DNA of 64,000 bases, from positions 6,138,001 to 6,202,000 of the forward strand of contig CP082844.1 of the NCBI GenBank assembly GCA_019930625.1, in the 5' to 3' direction. Every line of letters starts with the position of its first letter. Position 1 is the first letter of the stretch. The notes below the pieces were generated by a model. It worked only from the letters and a program-made list of their open reading frames with translations, searched no databases and was not told the DNA's origin. Source of the DNA: Nocardia asteroides. Its GTDB lineage: Bacteria; Actinomycetota; Actinomycetes; Mycobacteriales; Mycobacteriaceae. Shown piece after piece: positions 48,084 through 61,536 of the stretch. The position numbers were made by a program, and so were the translations under genes.

Positions 48084-49034
48084 TCACCCCCTCGAGTGGT
48101 CCGCGGGTTCGTCGACGGTCGGCGGGACACCGTCACGCAGGACCTGAAGCAACCGGCGGGTGTGCTCCGGTTGCGGCGCCAGCAGCGAAAGTTGGTTCAG
48201 CACCGCGTAGTACACGTCCAGATCAGCGATCTTGTCCAGATACAAGGCGCTGGTGAGCTGCTGGAGGTAGACGATGTCGGGCAGATCGGTCTCGGCGAAG
48301 CGCAAGACGGTGAAGGCGCCGTCGGTGAGCGCCGGGCCGCCCACGTGGTCGGCCAAGATCTGGATGGTGATGTTCGGCTGCGCCTCGATGCGCAGCAGAT
48401 GGTCGAGCTGGGCGCGCCAGACGGTCGAACCGCCGATCCTGCGGCGCAGCGCGGCTTCTTCGACGATCATCCACAGCTGAGGCGGGTGCGGGCCGGTGAG
48501 AATGTCCTGCCTGCGCATGCGCAGCGCGACCCGACGTTCGATAGACTCCTCCGGCTCGCCCGGATGCGACAGTGTGAGCAGCGAGCGAGCGTACTCCGGC
48601 GTCTGCAGCAGCTCGGGTACCGCCCGCGGTTCATAGCCACGGATCCGGCGCGCCGCCTGCTCCAAACCGAGGTAGGTGTCGAACCATTTCGGCAGCCAAT
48701 CGTTGTCCCGCGCCCACCATCCCGACGCGTTGGCCTGCCGGGCCAGCTCCAGGTACCGCTCCCGCTCCTCCGGATCGGCCACCTCGTAGAAGTCGAGCAG
48801 GTCGACCAGATCGCGTTGCCGGCAGCCGGTGCGGCCGAGTTCCAGCCTGCTGATCTTCGAATGCGACCCGCGAATGGCCTCGCCCGCGGCTTCGCGGGTG
48901 ATGCCGCGATCCTCGCGTAGGCGACGCAGACGACCGCCGAGAACCATGCGTAGCACCGTCGGCCCGCCGCCGGACACCGGATGGGCGCCGAGTCCGGGCG
49001 AATCGGGCGCTTGTCGTTCCTTCGAAGCGCGCAT
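48084..49034 (-). CDS. XRE/DUF5753 (Scr1-type) regulator, copy 1
   Basis: 316 residues. The XRE helix-turn-helix reads LGGRLRRLREDRGITREAAG, EAIRGSHSKISRLELGRTGC; the rest is DUF5753, with WFDTYLGLEQAARRIRGYEP, RAVPELLQTPEYARSLLTLS and ITIQILADHVGGPALTDGAF. Such proteins (WhiJ/Scr1-like) usually work with a small DUF397 protein, but none is adjacent to this copy. It shares MRAS at its start with copy 2, which supports the 49034 start. Copy 2 lies 29 bp upstream on the same strand, an apparent tandem duplication. Confidence 0.9.
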   Translation of the reverse strand: MRASKERQAPDSPGLGAHPVSGGGPTVLRMVLGGRLRRLREDRGITREAAGEAIRGSHSKISRLELGRTGCRQRDLVDLLDFYEVADPEERERYLELARQANASGWWARDNDWLPKWFDTYLGLEQAARRIRGYEPRAVPELLQTPEYARSLLTLSHPGEPEESIERRVALRMRRQDILTGPHPPQLWMIVEEAALRRRIGGSTVWRAQLDHLLRIEAQPNITIQILADHVGGPALTDGAFTVLRFAETDLPDIVYLQQLTSALYLDKIADLDVYYAVLNQLSLLAPQPEHTRRLLQVLRDGVPPTVDEPADHSRG

Positions 49035-49063
49035 GTCCCGAGTCTGCCACGTTCCCCCGGTCG

Positions 49064-50077
49064 TCATCTATGGTCGAAAGTCCCTGTACGAGCGGGTATT
49101 CCTGGTTCCATCAAGGTCATCCGACCGTTCGGTCGGCAATTCACCGACGGCAGGTCCACGATGTCGGGCTCACGCTCGCGCAACGCCGCGACGAGCTCGC
49201 GGGTGTACTCGGGTGGCGCGGCGTGCACCGAAAGCAGATTCGCCACCGAGCGGTAGGCCGCGAGATCGGCGTCCTTGTCCAGATACAGGGCGCCGGTGAG
49301 CTGCTGGAGATAGACGATGTCGGGCAGATCCGTCTCGGCGAAGCGCAGCATCGTGAACGCGCCGTCGGCCAGCGCGGGGCCGCCGACATGATCGGCGAGC
49401 ACCTGCACCGTGATGTTCGGCGCGTCCGCGGCCCGCAGCAGGTGCTCGAGCTGAGCCAGCCACACCCGCGAGCCCCCCATCCTGCGGCGCAGCGCGGCCT
49501 CCTCGACGATCAGCCACAGTTGGGGTGGGTCCGGCCTGGTCAGGATTTCCTGGCGGCGCATCCGCAAGACCACGCGCCGCTCGATCGACTCCTCGTCCTC
49601 GTGCGGATGAGCGAGCACGAACAGCGCTCGGGCGTAGTCGGGAGTCTGCAGCAGCTCCGGGACGACCCGCGGCTCGTAGCAGCGGATCAGCTGGGCGGCC
49701 TGTTCCAGCCCGAGGTAGGTGTCGAACCACTTCGGCAGCCAGTCGGCGTCGCGATGCCACCACCCCGAGGTGTTCGCCTGCTTGGCCAGCCGCTTGAACT
49801 CGGCGCACTCCTCCTCGTCGGTGACGCCGTACAGCGCGAGCAGGTCGACCAGGTCCCGCTCCCGGAAACCGGTACGCCCCAATTCCAGCCGGCTGATCTT
49901 GGAGTGGGAGCCGCGGATCGCCTCGCCCGCCTCCTCGAGGGAGATACCGCGCGCTTCCCGCAGCCGCCGCATCCGTGCGCCGAGAATCATCCGTAGGGCG
50001 GTCGGACCGCCCTCGGCGATGGGAGCCGTTCCGCGAGTGATGGATTCGTTCTGAGGCCGCACTACCGAAGCACGCAT
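49064..50077 (-). CDS. XRE/DUF5753 (Scr1-type) regulator, copy 2
   Basis: 337 residues, closely similar to copy 1 over nearly its whole length: LGARMRRLREARGISLEEAG, EAIRGSHSKISRLELGRTGF in the HTH and WFDTYLGLEQAAQLIRCYEP, RVVPELLQTPDYARALFVLA in DUF5753. It has an extra C-terminal tail of about 30 residues (VDLPSVNCRPNGRMTLMEPG). The start MRASVV at 50077 matches copy 1. No DUF397 gene adjoins. Cysteine at NC-R in the tail is unpaired. Confidence 0.9.
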   Translation of the reverse strand: MRASVVRPQNESITRGTAPIAEGGPTALRMILGARMRRLREARGISLEEAGEAIRGSHSKISRLELGRTGFRERDLVDLLALYGVTDEEECAEFKRLAKQANTSGWWHRDADWLPKWFDTYLGLEQAAQLIRCYEPRVVPELLQTPDYARALFVLAHPHEDEESIERRVVLRMRRQEILTRPDPPQLWLIVEEAALRRRMGGSRVWLAQLEHLLRAADAPNITVQVLADHVGGPALADGAFTMLRFAETDLPDIVYLQQLTGALYLDKDADLAAYRSVANLLSVHAAPPEYTRELVAALREREPDIVDLPSVNCRPNGRMTLMEPGIPARTGTFDHR

Positions 50078-50261
50078 GCACCGAGTCTCGCATGTGCACG
50101 GCCCACACTCCAGCACCGCGCTCCTCGAATCGGAGCGTATGCGCAGGTGTAAGCACATCCGCAAGATCACCGACGTGACCGCTCGGCGCTCGCCCGCCCT
50201 GCGGCATTCAGGAGACGAGACGATCCACGCCGGCTCACGCACCGGAACGCTCGGGAGCTGT

Positions 50262-57436: not shown

Positions 57437-57739
57437 GTGTTCAGTCGTATCGTCTCGATGAAGATCCGCCCCGGGTCCCGCGCCGAGTTCCTCGCCGCCA
57501 TATCACGCAGTGCCGAAGCCTCCGTACGGACCGAGCCGGGCTGTCTGCGCTTCGACATCTGCGCAGATCGGGTGGATCCTCACCGGTTTTTCCTCTATCA
57601 GCTCTACACCGACGACGAGGCGGCAGAAGCACACCGTTTCACCGAACATTTTCTGGCCTGGCATGCCGCGGCGGAGCAATTCGTCGAGCCGGGTACACAG
57701 ATCGACTACAGCACGGACGTCCTCTTCGGACAGGAGTGA
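57437..57739 (+). CDS. Antibiotic-biosynthesis-monooxygenase (ABM) family protein
   Basis: 100 residues. FSRIVSMKIRPGSRAEFLAA, EPGCLRFDICADRVDPHRFF, LYQLYTDDEAAEAHRFTEHF match the ABM fold of small quinol monooxygenases (YgiN-like) and related enzymes. Start is a GTG with GGGAGA upstream. Substrate unknown. It lies 62 bp after the SDR gene and ends 66 bp before the first of the shared promoter elements below. Confidence 0.83.
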   Translation: MFSRIVSMKIRPGSRAEFLAAISRSAEASVRTEPGCLRFDICADRVDPHRFFLYQLYTDDEAAEAHRFTEHFLAWHAAAEQFVEPGTQIDYSTDVLFGQE

Positions 57740-57804
57740 AAATTCCTCGCCGTGGCACCGTACCGGCAAACTTTTGGACGTGAAATCCGCACTGCGCACG
57801 TGCA

Positions 57805-57853
57805 ATCGATCGTGCAGATGTGCTTGCATCTGAAAGGTACGGCGGCATAAACT
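57805..57853 (+). promoter_or_regulatory. Shared promoter/operator, copy P1
   Basis: CAGATG-N6-CATCTG (57815-57832) is an inverted repeat whose right half contains the -35 TTGCAT (57824-57829). An 18-bp spacer leads to TAAACT (57848-57853). Over 48 bp it differs from the copy at 60921 at only 6 positions. A protein on the inverted repeat would cover the -35. A short GGTCCC/GGGACC hairpin and the start of a small ORF follow. The XRE/DUF397 proteins nearby are the candidate regulators (inference). Confidence 0.8.
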
Positions 57854-57895
57854 CGGTCCCGCAACTCTTTACAGGGGACCACCAGGGGAGGCCGC

Positions 57896-58033
57896 GTGGG
57901 CGAGCCGAAGGCCGAAGCCGCCGTGGGTTTGCCGCCGCCACAAAAGCAGGGGCGTTCGAATGGAACAACCACTTACCGGCGGTCGGTTCGGATCAGCCGA
58001 CACCGCACTGGCCGACCAGCCAGCGAACGGTAG
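57896..58033 (+). CDS. Small basic ORF downstream of P1
   Basis: A GTG preceded by AGGGGAGG gives 45 residues, MGEPKAEAAVGLPPPQKQGR and YRRSVRISRHRTGRPASER, rich in Arg and Pro. It ends 4 bp before the next small gene. No relatives known. It may be a real short gene or only a leader that couples translation to the next ORF. Confidence 0.35.
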   Translation: MGEPKAEAAVGLPPPQKQGRSNGTTTYRRSVRISRHRTGRPASER

Positions 58034-58037
58034 ACAT

Positions 58038-58265
58038 ATGAACACATCGTCGGCCCGCAGCGGCCACACCAATACCGCATTCTCCCGAGAAACCGCCGTG
58101 GCATACGTCATCCATGCCGTCGAATCCACCGGTGCGGCGACTCGGCACGATTTCGATATCGAACGAATCGTCACCACCGCACACGCGATGGCCGACGACT
58201 GGGATCTCGAGGCATTGCAACCCGCGACCTTCTGGCGCATTGCCTCCAGCTTCATCAAGCAGTAG
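58038..58265 (+). CDS. Uncharacterised small protein in the P1 transcript
   Basis: 75 residues: TNTAFSRETAVAYVIHAVES, TGAATRHDFDIERIVTTAHA, MADDWDLEALQPATFWRIAS. The helical, acidic C-terminal half and the DW-D-L-E-A-L pattern look like a folded small protein. An in-frame ATG at 57960 would add 26 residues. I do not recognise a family. It is driven by P1 and ends before a 19-bp terminator stem, opposite the XRE/DUF397 operon. Confidence 0.65.
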   Translation: MNTSSARSGHTNTAFSRETAVAYVIHAVESTGAATRHDFDIERIVTTAHAMADDWDLEALQPATFWRIASSFIKQ

Positions 58266-58430
58266 CACCGCCCCGCCGTCCGAGACCGGCTGGTAACGAG
58301 TCATCCTGTGCCACGAGCACTTTCGTCGCGTCACCCGACGCCGGTGCACTTCCACCACGATGCCACCGACGCCGGGCGCCGACTTCATGAAGATATTTCC
58401 GGCGCGCCGTCGCCATTGATCCGAAGAGCG

Positions 58431-58475
58431 AACGCCAGATGACCACCTCCGCTTCAGAGGTGGTCATCTGGCGTT
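58431..58475. terminator. Perfect 19-bp hairpin, bidirectional terminator
   Basis: Arms AACGCCAGATGACCACCTC and its complement GAGGTGGTCATCTGGCGTT enclose a 7-nt loop. It sits between the convergent small gene (stop 58265) and the XRE gene (stop 58515). Ends in AAC/GTT give short A/T tails on both sides. Very likely terminates both transcripts. Confidence 0.85.
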
Positions 58476-58514
58476 TACAGGTCTTCCGGCCGCACGGGAT
58501 GTTGCCGCAGGACC

Positions 58515-59402
58515 TCAGTGTGCGTCGGCGTACTTCTCCATGATCTCGATCGACTTGTCCGGACGCTCGGCCTGGACGCTGAGCCGGTCCATGACCGACA
58601 GATACAGCGCCAGGTCCTGCCGCCGCTCGAGATACAGCGCGCTGGTCAATTGTTCGAGATACACGATGTCCGGAAGTTCGGACTCGGCGAAGCGCAGGAT
58701 ACTGAAGGAACTACCCGCCGCGGCGTGCTCGCCCGCAGTGAACGGCAGTACCTGGATCGTCACGTTCGGCAGCTTCGCAAGCCTGACGAGGTGCAGCATC
58801 TGCTCCCGATGGACCTGCGGTCCACCGACGGGCCGGTGCAGCACCGCTTCATCGATCACTGCCCAGACCACCGGCGGGTCCGAGCGGAACAGGATTTCCT
58901 GCCTGCGCTGACGCACCGCGACCCGACGATCCGTGTCGGCGTCCTCGTGCCCGAGCGCCACGACCGCCCTGGCGTATTCGGGCGTTTGCAGCAGGCCGGG
59001 AACAAGATGCGACTCATAGGTACGGATCTTGCTCGCGGCCTGTTCCAGACCGAGGTAGGTACCGAACCACTGGGGCAGCAGGTCGCTGTAGCGATGCCAC
59101 CAGCCGGGCTCGTTGGCCTGCCTGGCCAGCTCGAGGAACGACTCGCGCTCCTCGGGATCGTGGACGCCGTACAGGGTCAGCAGGTCGCGGATGTCGCGTT
59201 CCTTGAAGCCGGTACGGCCCAACTCGAGTCGACTGATCTTGGCATGCGAGCCTCGGATCGCATCACCCGCGGCCTCGCGGGTGATGCCCTTCTTGTCCCG
59301 AAGCTTGCGCAACTGGCCGCCCAATGCGATGCGTAGCACAGTCGGACCACGTTCCGCGACAACGGATTGCACGTGACCATCGTCATCGGGTTCAGCGATC
59401 AT
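58515..59402 (-). CDS. XRE/DUF5753 (Scr1-type) regulator, copy 3
   Basis: 295 residues. LGGQLRKLRDKKGITREAAG, DAIRGSHAKISRLELGRTGF is the HTH; WFGTYLGLEQAASKIRTYES, HLVPGLLQTPEYARAVVALG and VTIQVLPFTAGEHAAAGSSF are DUF5753. It is more distant from copies 1 and 2 than they are from each other. It is preceded by a DUF397 gene in the same direction (90-bp gap), which gives the canonical pair. In Streptomyces such pairs (WhiJ, AbaA-like) regulate development and secondary metabolism; here the target could be the shared promoters. Confidence 0.9.
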   Translation of the reverse strand: MIAEPDDDGHVQSVVAERGPTVLRIALGGQLRKLRDKKGITREAAGDAIRGSHAKISRLELGRTGFKERDIRDLLTLYGVHDPEERESFLELARQANEPGWWHRYSDLLPQWFGTYLGLEQAASKIRTYESHLVPGLLQTPEYARAVVALGHEDADTDRRVAVRQRRQEILFRSDPPVVWAVIDEAVLHRPVGGPQVHREQMLHLVRLAKLPNVTIQVLPFTAGEHAAAGSSFSILRFAESELPDIVYLEQLTSALYLERRQDLALYLSVMDRLSVQAERPDKSIEIMEKYADAH

Positions 59403-59492
59403 CGAGTTCGTCTCCGATACTCCGGGGTTTGCCCACAGTGTGTCACAACCAGCTGACGGGAGACACACCGTACCGACCGCTAATGCTACCGC

Positions 59493-59714
59493 TCAGCTAG
59501 TCAAATAGTCGAACTCTCCGGCCTTCGCGCCACGGACGAACGCATCGATCTCCGGACGCGTGTAAAGGAGGATACCGCCCTCCGGATCCCGCGAGTTGCG
59601 CACGGCCACCTGGCCGTTGGCCGCCTCGGCCACCTCGACGCAGTTGCCGCTGGGATTGCTGAAGGAACTCTTGCGCCAAGTTCCGATGATCTCGTTGGTG
59701 GATGTATCCGACAT
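59493..59714 (-). CDS. DUF397 protein
   Basis: 73 residues. WRKSSFSNPSGNCVEVAEAA, NGQVAVRNSRDPEGGILLYT, RPEIDAFVRGAKAGEFDYL contains the family hallmarks: W-K/R-S-S-x-S, N-C-V-E-V, V-R-D/N-S-K/R and F/Y-x-x-x-K-x-G-x-F/L. DUF397 proteins pair with DUF5753 XRE regulators, and some pairs act like toxin-antitoxin or signalling modules. It is the first gene of the XRE copy-3 operon; its promoter region carries the TGCATCTG-type motif. Confidence 0.92.
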   Translation of the reverse strand: MSDTSTNEIIGTWRKSSFSNPSGNCVEVAEAANGQVAVRNSRDPEGGILLYTRPEIDAFVRGAKAGEFDYLTS

Positions 59715-59731
59715 CTTCCCCACTCCTCGGT

Positions 59732-59800
59732 TGCCGCAGTTAGGCGATTCGGTTCGTGCAGATGCACGTTCAAACGTTCTTGCATTTGCACCAACACCGG
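59732..59800 (-). promoter_or_regulatory. P3: diverged relative of the shared element, before DUF397
   Basis: On the minus strand TGCAAATGCA (59790-59781) is followed by GTGCATCTGCAC (around 59768-59757), then a TAACTG-like -10 near 59742. The half sites resemble CAGATG/CATCTG of P1 and P2, but they are farther apart and the -10 is weak. If the same protein binds all three, the XRE/DUF397 operon would be autoregulated. Confidence 0.5.
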
Positions 59801-59994
59801 ACGATAGCACGAAGTTCGCGCTCTGTGCGCCCGCAGATTCGGACCATCCGGACGGGATTGTGAAACACGATCACCTCGCCCAGAAACACCGAGATCAGCT
59901 CCCCCGTCCGGCCCGCTCGACGAGGGTGAATCTTGTACTGTCGCAGTGCACATCGGATGTACCAGTCATTCGCGACACCTCCACGCGCCCACCC

Positions 59995-60022
59995 GCACGG
60001 CCGTGCCGCGGACAGTTTTTTT
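59995..60022 (+). promoter_or_regulatory. Attenuator-like hairpin with T7 run before the methyltransferase
   Basis: GCACGG/CCGTGC (59995-60006) is a 12-bp palindrome, followed after 9 nt by seven T (60016-60022), rare in this GC-rich DNA. It lies 19-46 bp before the methyltransferase ATG. Could be an attenuator or a terminator of an upstream transcript. Confidence 0.5.
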
Positions 60023-60040
60023 GCCGAGGAGTCCAACCCC

Positions 60041-60838
60041 ATGCCCGAAGACCACAGCCCCCTCATCCGGACCGACATCCCCCACTCCGCGCGGATCTGG
60101 AACTACTGGATGGGCGGCAAGGACTACTACGAGATCGACCGCATCGCAGGCGACGCCGGCATCGAAGTCGATCCGGACATCACCACCATGGCGATGCAGT
60201 CGCGCCAATTCCTCATTCGCGCGGTGCGTTACCTCGCCGGCGAGCAGGGCATCCGCCAGTTTCTCGATATCGGCACCGGCCTGCCCACCATGCAGAACAC
60301 CCACGAAGTCGCCCAGAGCGTCGCGCCCGAGTCCCGGATCGTCTACGTGGACAACGATCCCCTGGTGCTCACGCACGCGCGAGCGCTACTCACCAGCACC
60401 ACCCCGGAAGGCGTGACCACCTACATCGACGCCGACTACCACGATCCCGAGCTGATCGTCGCCGACGCCAAGCACGTCCTGAACTTCAACGAGCCGGTCG
60501 CCGTGATGTTCATGGGCGTGCTCGGCCACGCCAAGACATACGACGATCTGCTCCGGATCGTGCACACCGTGCTGGACGCCGTTCCGTCGGGCAGCTACCT
60601 GGTGATGTGGGACGGCACCGACGACAGCAAGGCGTATGTCACGCTGTGCGAGAACTACACCGGCACCGGCGGCACTCCTTATGTCCCCCGCCCACAGGCG
60701 CAGATCAAGGCCGTCTTCGATGGTTTGGAGCTCGTGGAGCCCGGTTTCGTGTCGATTACGCAGTGGCGCTCGGGCGCGACCGAGGTCGGGGAGGCCCGGC
60801 CGATCTCCGCCTACGGTGGGGTCGCACGCAAGCCGTAA
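60041..60838 (+). CDS. DUF574/SAV2177-type SAM-dependent methyltransferase
   Basis: 265 residues. RTDIPHSARIWNYWMGGKDY, YEIDRIAGDAGIEVDPDITT mark the N-terminal signature of this family; FLDIGTGLPTMQNTHEVAQS is the SAM-binding motif I, RIVYVDNDPLVLTHARALL motif II. It likely methylates an unknown acceptor in the cytoplasm. DUF574 genes commonly sit beside XRE/DUF397 pairs in actinomycetes; here it is divergent from DUF397. No strong ribosome site, GAGG about 10 nt upstream. A good hairpin terminator follows. Confidence 0.9.
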   Translation: MPEDHSPLIRTDIPHSARIWNYWMGGKDYYEIDRIAGDAGIEVDPDITTMAMQSRQFLIRAVRYLAGEQGIRQFLDIGTGLPTMQNTHEVAQSVAPESRIVYVDNDPLVLTHARALLTSTTPEGVTTYIDADYHDPELIVADAKHVLNFNEPVAVMFMGVLGHAKTYDDLLRIVHTVLDAVPSGSYLVMWDGTDDSKAYVTLCENYTGTGGTPYVPRPQAQIKAVFDGLELVEPGFVSITQWRSGATEVGEARPISAYGGVARKP

Positions 60839-60869
60839 GACCCCTGGACACGAAATTACAAGCGGCACA

Positions 60870-60912
60870 GTGGCGGTCGCCGGTTCCATACCGGCGACGG
60901 CCACCGCTTTTT
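60870..60912 (+). terminator. Rho-independent terminator of the methyltransferase
   Basis: GTGGC-x-GTCGCCGG pairs with CCGGCGAC-x-GCCAC (one mismatch) across a 7-nt loop, followed by CGC and five T, 32 bp after the stop. One of the few U-tailed terminators in the window. Confidence 0.85.
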
Positions 60913-60920
60913 CTGCGACC

Positions 60921-60966
60921 GATCGTGCAGATGTACTTGCATCTGTAAGCGACGGAGGCATAGACT
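60921..60966 (+). promoter_or_regulatory. Shared promoter/operator, copy P2
   Basis: CAGATG-N6-CATCTG (60928-60945) with TTGCAT -35 (60937-60942), 18-bp spacer and TAGACT -10 (60961-60966). Near-identical to P1. It begins only 9 bp after the T-run of the preceding terminator. Followed by a leader of about 90 nt with a 9-bp stem, then the gene at 61064. Confidence 0.8.
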
Positions 60967-60989
60967 CGAAGACGAAATCAGGGAGATAC

Positions 60990-61035
60990 GCAGGGAGTTC
61001 GAGCCCGCGTCGCCAGCACGCCGAGCACTCCCTGC
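60990..61035 (+). promoter_or_regulatory. Stem in the P2 leader
   Basis: GCAGGGAGT and ACTCCCTGC form a perfect 9-bp stem with a 28-nt loop in the 5' leader, between P2 and the ribosome site (GAGGGG at about 61052). No riboswitch class was recognised. It could affect translation or act as a protein site. Confidence 0.45.
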
Positions 61036-61063
61036 CGCACGTTCGGACGCGAGGGGTAGTCGA

Positions 61064-61300
61064 ATGATCGAGCCATTTCGAACTCCCCACCGGGTTGCCG
61101 TCATCGATGGCGCCGGTGCCGAAGCCTTGCGCCAATACCCTGCGCCCGATTTCTCCCTGTCCGACTGCGGGGTGGAGCCCCGTGGCCTCACCTACCGGCA
61201 GGCGCGCGACATCCTCTATGCCCACGAAGTCCACGGCCCGCAATGCAGGCAGTGGCTGGCCGCCGCCGCCTACTTGTCAGCCGGGCTGGACGACGAGTAG
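61064..61300 (+). CDS. Uncharacterised small protein in the P2 transcript
   Basis: 78 residues: VAVIDGAGAEALRQYPAPDF, SLSDCGVEPRGLTYRQARDI, LYAHEVHGPQCRQWLAAAAY. Mostly helical in the second half, with two cysteines (DCG and QCR). No family recognised. GAGGGG lies 8 nt before the ATG. It is controlled by the P2 element that matches P1, so it is likely co-regulated with the small gene at 58038. Confidence 0.68.
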   Translation: MIEPFRTPHRVAVIDGAGAEALRQYPAPDFSLSDCGVEPRGLTYRQARDILYAHEVHGPQCRQWLAAAAYLSAGLDDE

Positions 61301-61536
61301 ACGAAGACTTCTTCTGACACGCAAAGACATCCACTCCAGCGCGTACCTCGCTCCAGCACGCTGAGCGGCGTGCGGCGTGCCCAGCGTCGGAGTCACGATC
61401 GCCGCATCGCGTAATGCGACGACAACCAATCGATCTCACAGATCACTCCCGGTGTCCACGGCCCTTTCGTATAGTGATCGATCGACTCGGGCGCGATTTC
61501 TCACACGCCTGGCGTGGCACTTGGAGCGAACTCGTA

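Follow-up and report, generated by a model that had tools for sequence, protein, structure and literature searches.

The results described here show that a class of predicted operators built as arrays of TGCA half-sites is linked to one clade of XRE regulators encoded beside DUF397 proteins. Three predicted members of the class, A, B and C, lie in a 64,000-nucleotide stretch of the Nocardia asteroides genome (assembly GCA_019930625.1, contig CP082844.1, positions 6,138,001 to 6,202,000 of the forward strand; hereafter 'the window', in whose coordinates positions are given). Elements A and B stand before two small genes, smA and smB, and site C stands beside the promoter of the DUF397-XRE operon located between them. 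The operators and the regulator operon comprise:

57806..57853, plus strand: element A, predicted operator and promoter of smA (18-bp spacer in all 39 A sites scored, that of the window among them)
57824-57829 and 57848-57853: −35 TTGCAT and −10 TAAACT of element A, with an 18-bp spacer
57828-57813, minus strand: predicted operator core of element A, TGCAAGCACATCTGCA
58515..59402, minus strand: XRE regulator with HTH_31 and DUF5753 domains, helix stretch IRGSHAKISRLELGRTGF
59493..59714, minus strand: DUF397 (BldB-like) protein, encoded first in the DUF397-XRE operon
59757..59790, no strand assigned: site C, a TGCA array that separates the promoter of the DUF397-XRE operon from the start of DUF397 and is proposed to be autoregulatory (model match E 0.049)
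59801..59806, minus strand: −10-like TATCGT of the DUF397-XRE promoter, within GTGCTATCGT
60919..60966, plus strand: element B, predicted operator and promoter of smB (of 40 B sites scored, that of the window among them, 38 have a spacer of 18 bp and 2 a spacer of 17 bp)
60937-60942 and 60961-60966: −35 TTGCAT and −10 TAGACT of element B, with an 18-bp spacer
60941-60926, minus strand: predicted operator core of element B, TGCAAGTACATCTGCA

Elements A and B lie 3.1 kb apart and are near-identical, with 41 identities in 48 positions in the best register (57806-57853 vs. 60919-60966); in 20-bp bins at the best offset, identity is 14-17 within the element and 4-10 beyond it. An initial annotation of this DNA had given 42 of 48 identities and had placed the start of A at 57805; the near-identity stands, the exact count does not, and the start is one base out of register, giving 7 of 48 matches if taken literally. 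The two CAGATG-N6-CATCTG elements that the same annotation reported are real, with exact matches at two places in the window, 57815 and 60928 (with up to two mismatches, 5 matches vs. 2.34 expected), and the TTGCAT −35, 18-bp spacer and TANACT −10 are found as claimed at both A and B.

The element is better read as an array of TGCA half-sites, spaced mainly by 6, 12 or 18 bp, than as one inverted repeat; the inverted repeat is present, but as a description of the unit it was superseded by the TGCA array after class-wide spacing counts. The array idea arose in a first batch of loci (L227-L253), from weak model matches upstream of distant DUF397 genes, and was then tried on a second batch (L254-L293) hand-picked for spread over genomes. 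The array recurs in other actinobacterial families: counting of TGCA pairs in the 260 bp upstream of 68 class-wide operons (L227-L293) gave spacings of 6, 12 and 18 bp in 43, 32 and 36 operons, respectively, and spacings of 8-11 and 14-17 bp in none. In 68 coding stretches of equal size, used as controls, the corresponding counts at 6, 12 and 18 bp were 1, 0 and 0; composition shuffles at a spacing of 12 bp gave a mean of 0.16 and a maximum of 2 of 68; and none of eight other palindromic four-letter words rose above 7 of 68 at the spacings compared. An array with a spacing of 12 or 18 bp is present in 28 of 29 operons in which DUF397 comes first (14 of 15 and 14 of 14 in the first and later batches, respectively), and in 4 of 12 (first batch) and 7 of 27 (second batch) operons without an upstream DUF397. 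The 16-mer TGCAAGYACAKMTGCA, which was composed after the loci had been seen, fits A and B exactly; seven operons, of which four are closely related, have a mismatch-free copy upstream, and 38 of the 68 operons have one with up to three mismatches, vs. 0 of 68 coding stretches. At the promoters of 39 ordinary DUF397 loci, 29 of them class-wide and 10 in this genome, no TGCA pair is spaced by 12 or 18 bp; four of these 39 have such a pair elsewhere: inside the XRE gene (L305, L311), downstream (L322) or far upstream (L117). In L239, L240 and L242 (3 of 67 distant loci), a TANACT −10 faces away from the array, the same arrangement as at Nocardia A and B, though at different spacings.

The arrays are linked to regulator phylogeny. 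In a maximum-likelihood tree of 113 XREs (113 of 115 loci supplied, including seven of the ten other DUF397 loci of this genome, with some long branches among the outside rows), all 58 rows that carry the array label fall in one 79-row clade with support of 100/100, and none of the 34 rows outside that clade carries it. The label admits sites as far as 1.6 kb upstream or 0.9 kb downstream, and a chance label is estimated at about one locus in eight, from three such pairs in the window outside A-C. The helix-stretch form IRxSxxK followed by ISR (LCR in one row) is found in 74 of the 79 clade rows; outside the clade, 26 of 34 rows miss the helix search pattern, and one row, IRGSEAKISRMENG, has the same IRxSxxK form. 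Taking these patterns together, we lean, somewhat beyond an even chance, to a joint proposal: that one monophyletic XRE/DUF397 subfamily across Actinomycetes reads a common TGCA code (core TGCAAGYACAKMTGCA, spacings mainly of 6, 12 and 18 bp) through an IR[GA]S[HE]xKISR helix, and that Nocardia built a small-protein regulon by placing operator-promoter copies before the unrelated small genes smA, smB and, in some species, smC.

Within the genus, the operators are conserved and specific. A 21-bp pattern is found with up to two mismatches in 117 of 118 genus genomes, in 108 of them two or more times, and the reversed control pattern gives seven single matches across the 118. A sequence-only site model built from 61 genus sites, used to search the 7.4-Mb genome (150 of 1397 first-look candidates scored), returns A at 3.3e-15, B at 5.3e-15 and C at 0.049; a motif scattered genome-wide and unlinked to DUF397/XRE loci, the outcome that the initial annotation had named as fatal to its proposal, was looked for in this search, and only A, B and C fall below E 0.1. 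In 40 loci fetched from genus genomes (L038-L077), XRE was found in 40 (the match in L060, a cut contig, being a 59% paralog), smA in 39 (no match in L054), DUF397 in 39, smB in 39, the methyltransferase discussed below in 17 and a PucR-type protein in 16. With the window added to the sequences scored, element A is found in 39 of 40, being absent from L072, where smA is cut short, and element B is found in 40 of 40.

Outside this set, the operator tracks the regulator. In a family-wide sample of 201 genomes, searched with stricter filters than this genome, 32 match at E <=0.1; 15 of these are same-genus genomes, each with a best E of 5.5e-11 or lower, and beyond the genus only one genome matches strongly (G131; 5.2e-9 and 3.9e-5), with E no better than 0.002 for the other 16 (the same-genus count refers to matching genomes; 149 non-matching genomes stand outside the listing). 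Among 80 loci collected by XRE similarity, each of the 76 with 70-98% identity (L144-L219) has at least one strong model match, and the four with 66-70% identity (L220-L223) show no match at E <=1; both kinds of locus occur, one each, in N. altamirensis and in N. colli. Eighteen of the 76 are contigs already within L038-L077, leaving 58 new loci, and since the genus locus sets overlap and close relatives occur among the class-wide loci, the counts are not counts of independent events. A Mycobacteriaceae metagenome bin beyond the genus (L126/L198) has two sites beside an XRE with 73% and a DUF397 with 67% identity, and neither smA nor smB was found on its 9-kb contig. We conclude that the operator follows the regulator pair and not the small genes.

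Site C differs from A and B in geometry. The initial annotation had noted a weaker relative before the DUF397/XRE operon; the site exists (59757-59790), but because it lies between the DUF397 start and the −10-like TATCGT, it is placed downstream of that predicted promoter and not before it. Thus A and B sit on a −35, and C sits just past the predicted promoter of the regulator operon. Site C was assigned in 32 of 40 sequences scored, and at all 32 assigned sites a GATAGCA-like string (the reverse of a −10, sought with a permissive pattern) lies at a distance of 14-17 bp from the C core; provided that TATCGT is the −10, all 32 would have the geometry of repeated sites downstream of the regulator's own promoter. 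In three distant loci (L236, L243, L252), GCTATCATG or GCTATCGTG lies close to the array. By its predicted HTH_31 (1.2e-15) and DUF5753 (9.1e-61) domains and its adjoining DUF397 gene (PF04149, 4.8e-21), the locus is assigned to the XRE-DUF397 (WhiJ/BldB-type) pairs. The pairs described in PMC8269248 have the gene order XRE then DUF397; here and in 29 of 68 class-wide operons the order is DUF397 then XRE. Order is not treated here as required for membership, since two protein families define the pair and these operons fall in one XRE clade.

We consider it likely that the XRE encoded between A and B binds A, B and C, controls smA and smB, and represses its own operon, with its activity modulated by DUF397. 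XRE would read the TGCA half-site arrays through its conserved IR[GA]S[HE]xKISR helix, probably as an oligomer. At C, XRE bound just downstream of the DUF397-XRE promoter would repress its own operon. At A and B, where the −35 region stands 18 bp from the −10, XRE bound over that region would replace or cover the −35 and so control smA and smB. The proposal that DUF397 alters XRE activity is drawn by analogy to described pairs.

Several observations weigh against this reading or the wider TGCA code. Site C is weak under the model for A and B (E 0.049), and in 8 of 40 sequences the script chose B in its place. Nine of the 118 genus genomes have one pattern match and one has none. Spacings of 7, 13 and 19 bp occur in 6, 11 and 11 of the 68 operons, so that phasing is not strict; L238 is without a strict array; and the array is missing from 28 of 39 operons without an upstream DUF397. 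Two loci blur the edges of the class: L220, which has no model match, has a TGCA pair under the looser tree label, and L321, the neighbor of the clade in the tree, shows a TGCA pair with 6-bp spacing roughly 80 bp ahead of its XRE match, indicating that the class border is not sharp.

Within the proposed XRE circuit, the sign of regulation at smA and smB may be positive or negative. Activation appears most likely, for two reasons: TTGCAT with an 18-bp spacer would make a poor −35, and WhiJ9 is required for a small-protein gene to be activated. Repression, a variant that shares the same sites, the same XRE and the core of the reading, is nearly as likely and, in our estimate, falls only modestly short of even: XRE would cover the −35 of smA and smB, and DUF397 would relieve the block, as in the older WhiJ model. 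The overlap of operator and −35 at all 39 scored A and all 40 scored B sites is consistent with repression, as is the WhiJ repression model presented in PMC6262351 and PMC4255298, whereas a TTGCAT promoter with an 18-bp spacer seems weak unaided, WhiJ9 acts as an activator of its small-protein target (PMC10294661), and a positive regulatory role is reported for Scr1/Scr2 (PMC6262351).

Readings that dispense with this XRE fare worse. A binder other than this XRE, for example the neighboring PucR-type protein or an XRE paralog, is unlikely: a PucR-type match occurs in 16 of 40 loci, some of these matches being distant copies elsewhere in the locus, and is thus inconstant, whereas XRE is present in all 40 loci and DUF397 in 39 of them, and the operator is found beside XRE/DUF397 beyond the genus too. 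The genome also encodes XRE paralogs of the same clade, including two within the window (48084-50242), so that cross-binding is possible. The constant spacing to the −10 would also be expected if A and B formed a class of promoters read by a single sigma factor, their conserved −35 being extended and no regulator being bound; we regard this as very unlikely, since C combines an array with no such −10 and follows a promoter that points the other way, since the array recurs at DUF397 promoters of other families with a TANACT −10 nearby in 3 of 67 only, and since conservation reaches upstream of the −35. A near-identical pair 3.1 kb apart could, in principle, reflect chance or a recent duplication without function, as the initial annotation had allowed; this is highly improbable, given that both copies are kept genus-wide, each with its own distinct leader and gene, that the spacing is fixed, and that a third copy stands before another small gene in some species.

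Comparison with described systems places the regulator pair among known types and sets its operator apart. The closest precedent is WhiJ9-BldB9-iosA of Streptomyces venezuelae, in which WhiJ9 binds repeats downstream of its own promoter, with autorepression, and is required for iosA activation in a bldB mutant (PMC10294661). The WhiJ9-BldB9-iosA system resembles the locus here in its XRE and DUF397 pair, its small-protein target of unknown function (predicted here) and its tandem repeats, with three copies at the autoregulatory site, and its site downstream of its own promoter would correspond to C if TATCGT is the −10 (PMC10294661). It differs in that the WhiJ9 repeat is CGXXCTCAAC and the repeat here is TGCA, in that the WhiJ9 site lies 113 bp upstream of the target transcript start and A and B lie on the −35, and in that WhiJ9 has one local target, compared with two or three predicted here, where the operon order is DUF397 then XRE (PMC10294661). 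The sequence surrounding A, B and C contains no CTCAAC or GTTGAG of the WhiJ9 type. In Streptomyces coelicolor, the WhiJ/SCO4542 and Scr1/Scr2 pairs likewise include a DUF397 partner thought to modulate the XRE, and their targets are unlike those here (PMC4255298, PMC6262351). A type II toxin-antitoxin prediction concerns the same two protein families (PMC2701414), but the pair here is linked to fixed external targets.

Such pairs are numerous: S. clavuligerus has 24 XRE/DUF397 pairs (PMC8269248), and genomes with any bldB paralogs have a median of 19 (PMC10294661). A 2013 review stated that information on WhiJ targets was lacking (PMC4255298), and among XRE/DUF397 regulators in the sources consulted only WhiJ9 has a mapped operator (PMC10294661). 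Among the titles and abstracts listed in searches of the open-access PMC literature, with subscription papers and preprints outside their scope, none reports a TGCA-array operator for XRE/DUF397. XRE/DUF397 pairs are already known, and the TGCA-array operator tied to one clade appears to be new. A sequence-defined operator class tied to one regulator clade would make targets predictable and provide matched regulator-operator pairs; if the reading is true, the operator alone would predict targets of otherwise orphan XRE/DUF397 regulators, and smA and smB, two conserved uncharacterized Nocardia proteins, are indicated as outputs of the circuit.

The genes beside the operators and the regulator operon are:

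57960..58265, plus strand: smA, 101 aa, with a conserved C-terminal part of about 60 residues and Shine-Dalgarno sequence CAGGGG; no Pfam family
60041..60838, plus strand: S-adenosyl methyltransferase (PF04672), an optional member present in 17 of 40 loci
61064..61300, plus strand: smB, 78 aa, with invariant C35, H54, H57 and C61 and Shine-Dalgarno sequence GAGGGG; no Pfam family

The initial annotation had placed a small gene behind each element, and both genes encode proteins conserved across the genus. Of the 80 matches to smA, those that carry a species name are Nocardia, as are the named matches to smB among the 120 listed of 235. The residues C35, H54, H57 and C61 of smB are invariant across 38 sequences and suggest a metal site. 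A PDB sequence search gave no match for XRE (up to E 0.01) or for the smB profile (up to E 1). The local regulon suggested by the initial annotation has good support from conservation for XRE/DUF397 and the two small proteins. The methyltransferase is not a core member, given the gene's presence in only 17 of 40 loci, and the model finds no site of the gene's own in this genome. In other families, the S-adenosyl methyltransferase family adjoins the same XRE clade, on the XRE strand (L227, L235, L243, L252); the link thus looks old, though it is optional in Nocardia.

The leaders of smA and smB are distinct. The smA leader (about 100 bases, 57856-57959) is strongly conserved in sequence, with AGGGGA invariant in 35 aligned leaders. 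Folded singly, 33 distinct smA leaders (4 loci skipped) often form one long hairpin; z-scores range from −1.84 to 0.41 (n=6), and RNAalifold finds two-sided change in 0 of 6 pairs. A leader peptide before smA was considered and set aside, its GTG at 57896 being kept in some relatives only. The smB leader (60969-61063, and relatives) has a stem of the GGGGAGGU/ACCUCCCC type shortly 5′ of the Shine-Dalgarno sequence. Variants in several species alter the sequence of this stem and keep its pairing, and these apparent compensatory changes, seen among 27 leaders, are suggestive only; matched, mismatched and shuffled arms give −23.8, −21.9 and −19.8 kcal/mol, with a standard deviation of 4.5. An Rfam search of 57700-61400 up to E 1 gives a single match, to MIR1432 (E 0.7; 22.7 bits vs. 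a gathering score of 90), outside both leaders, and neither leader fits a described Rfam family.

Further copies of the element occur elsewhere in the genus. In some species an additional element copy precedes smC, a third small gene whose protein has a stretch resembling RRLGIADIAAVYGTEALHRRIAQLRASGQHYAAVAIE; the copy lies at these positions of the respective loci:

L170, 3981-4028 (same contig as L047, 10031)
L172, 3983-4030
L196, 3984-4031
L178, 4020-4068
L188, 3943-3988
L169, 3178-3219
L177, 3946-3995
L127, 2013

A weaker conserved site lies about 150 bp before an unlinked 410-aa gene with no Pfam family at six loci in other genus genomes (L128, L129, L131, L132, L134, L135), and the same weak site is found in this genome near C1:4619799 (L141) at E 0.2. 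The smC copies and the site before the 410-aa gene fit a regulon that grows by gain of operator-promoter copies; as a candidate regulon member, the 410-aa gene is only a lead.

The two XRE/DUF5753 paralogs at 48084-50242 of the window are in tandem on the minus strand and have the helix IRGSHSKISRLELGRTG. Predicted sites lie near them at 50077-50099 and 50144-50165, and TGTAAGCACATCCGCAAG, a related half-site that differs from the 16-mer at two positions, is located some 120 bp upstream of the second paralog.

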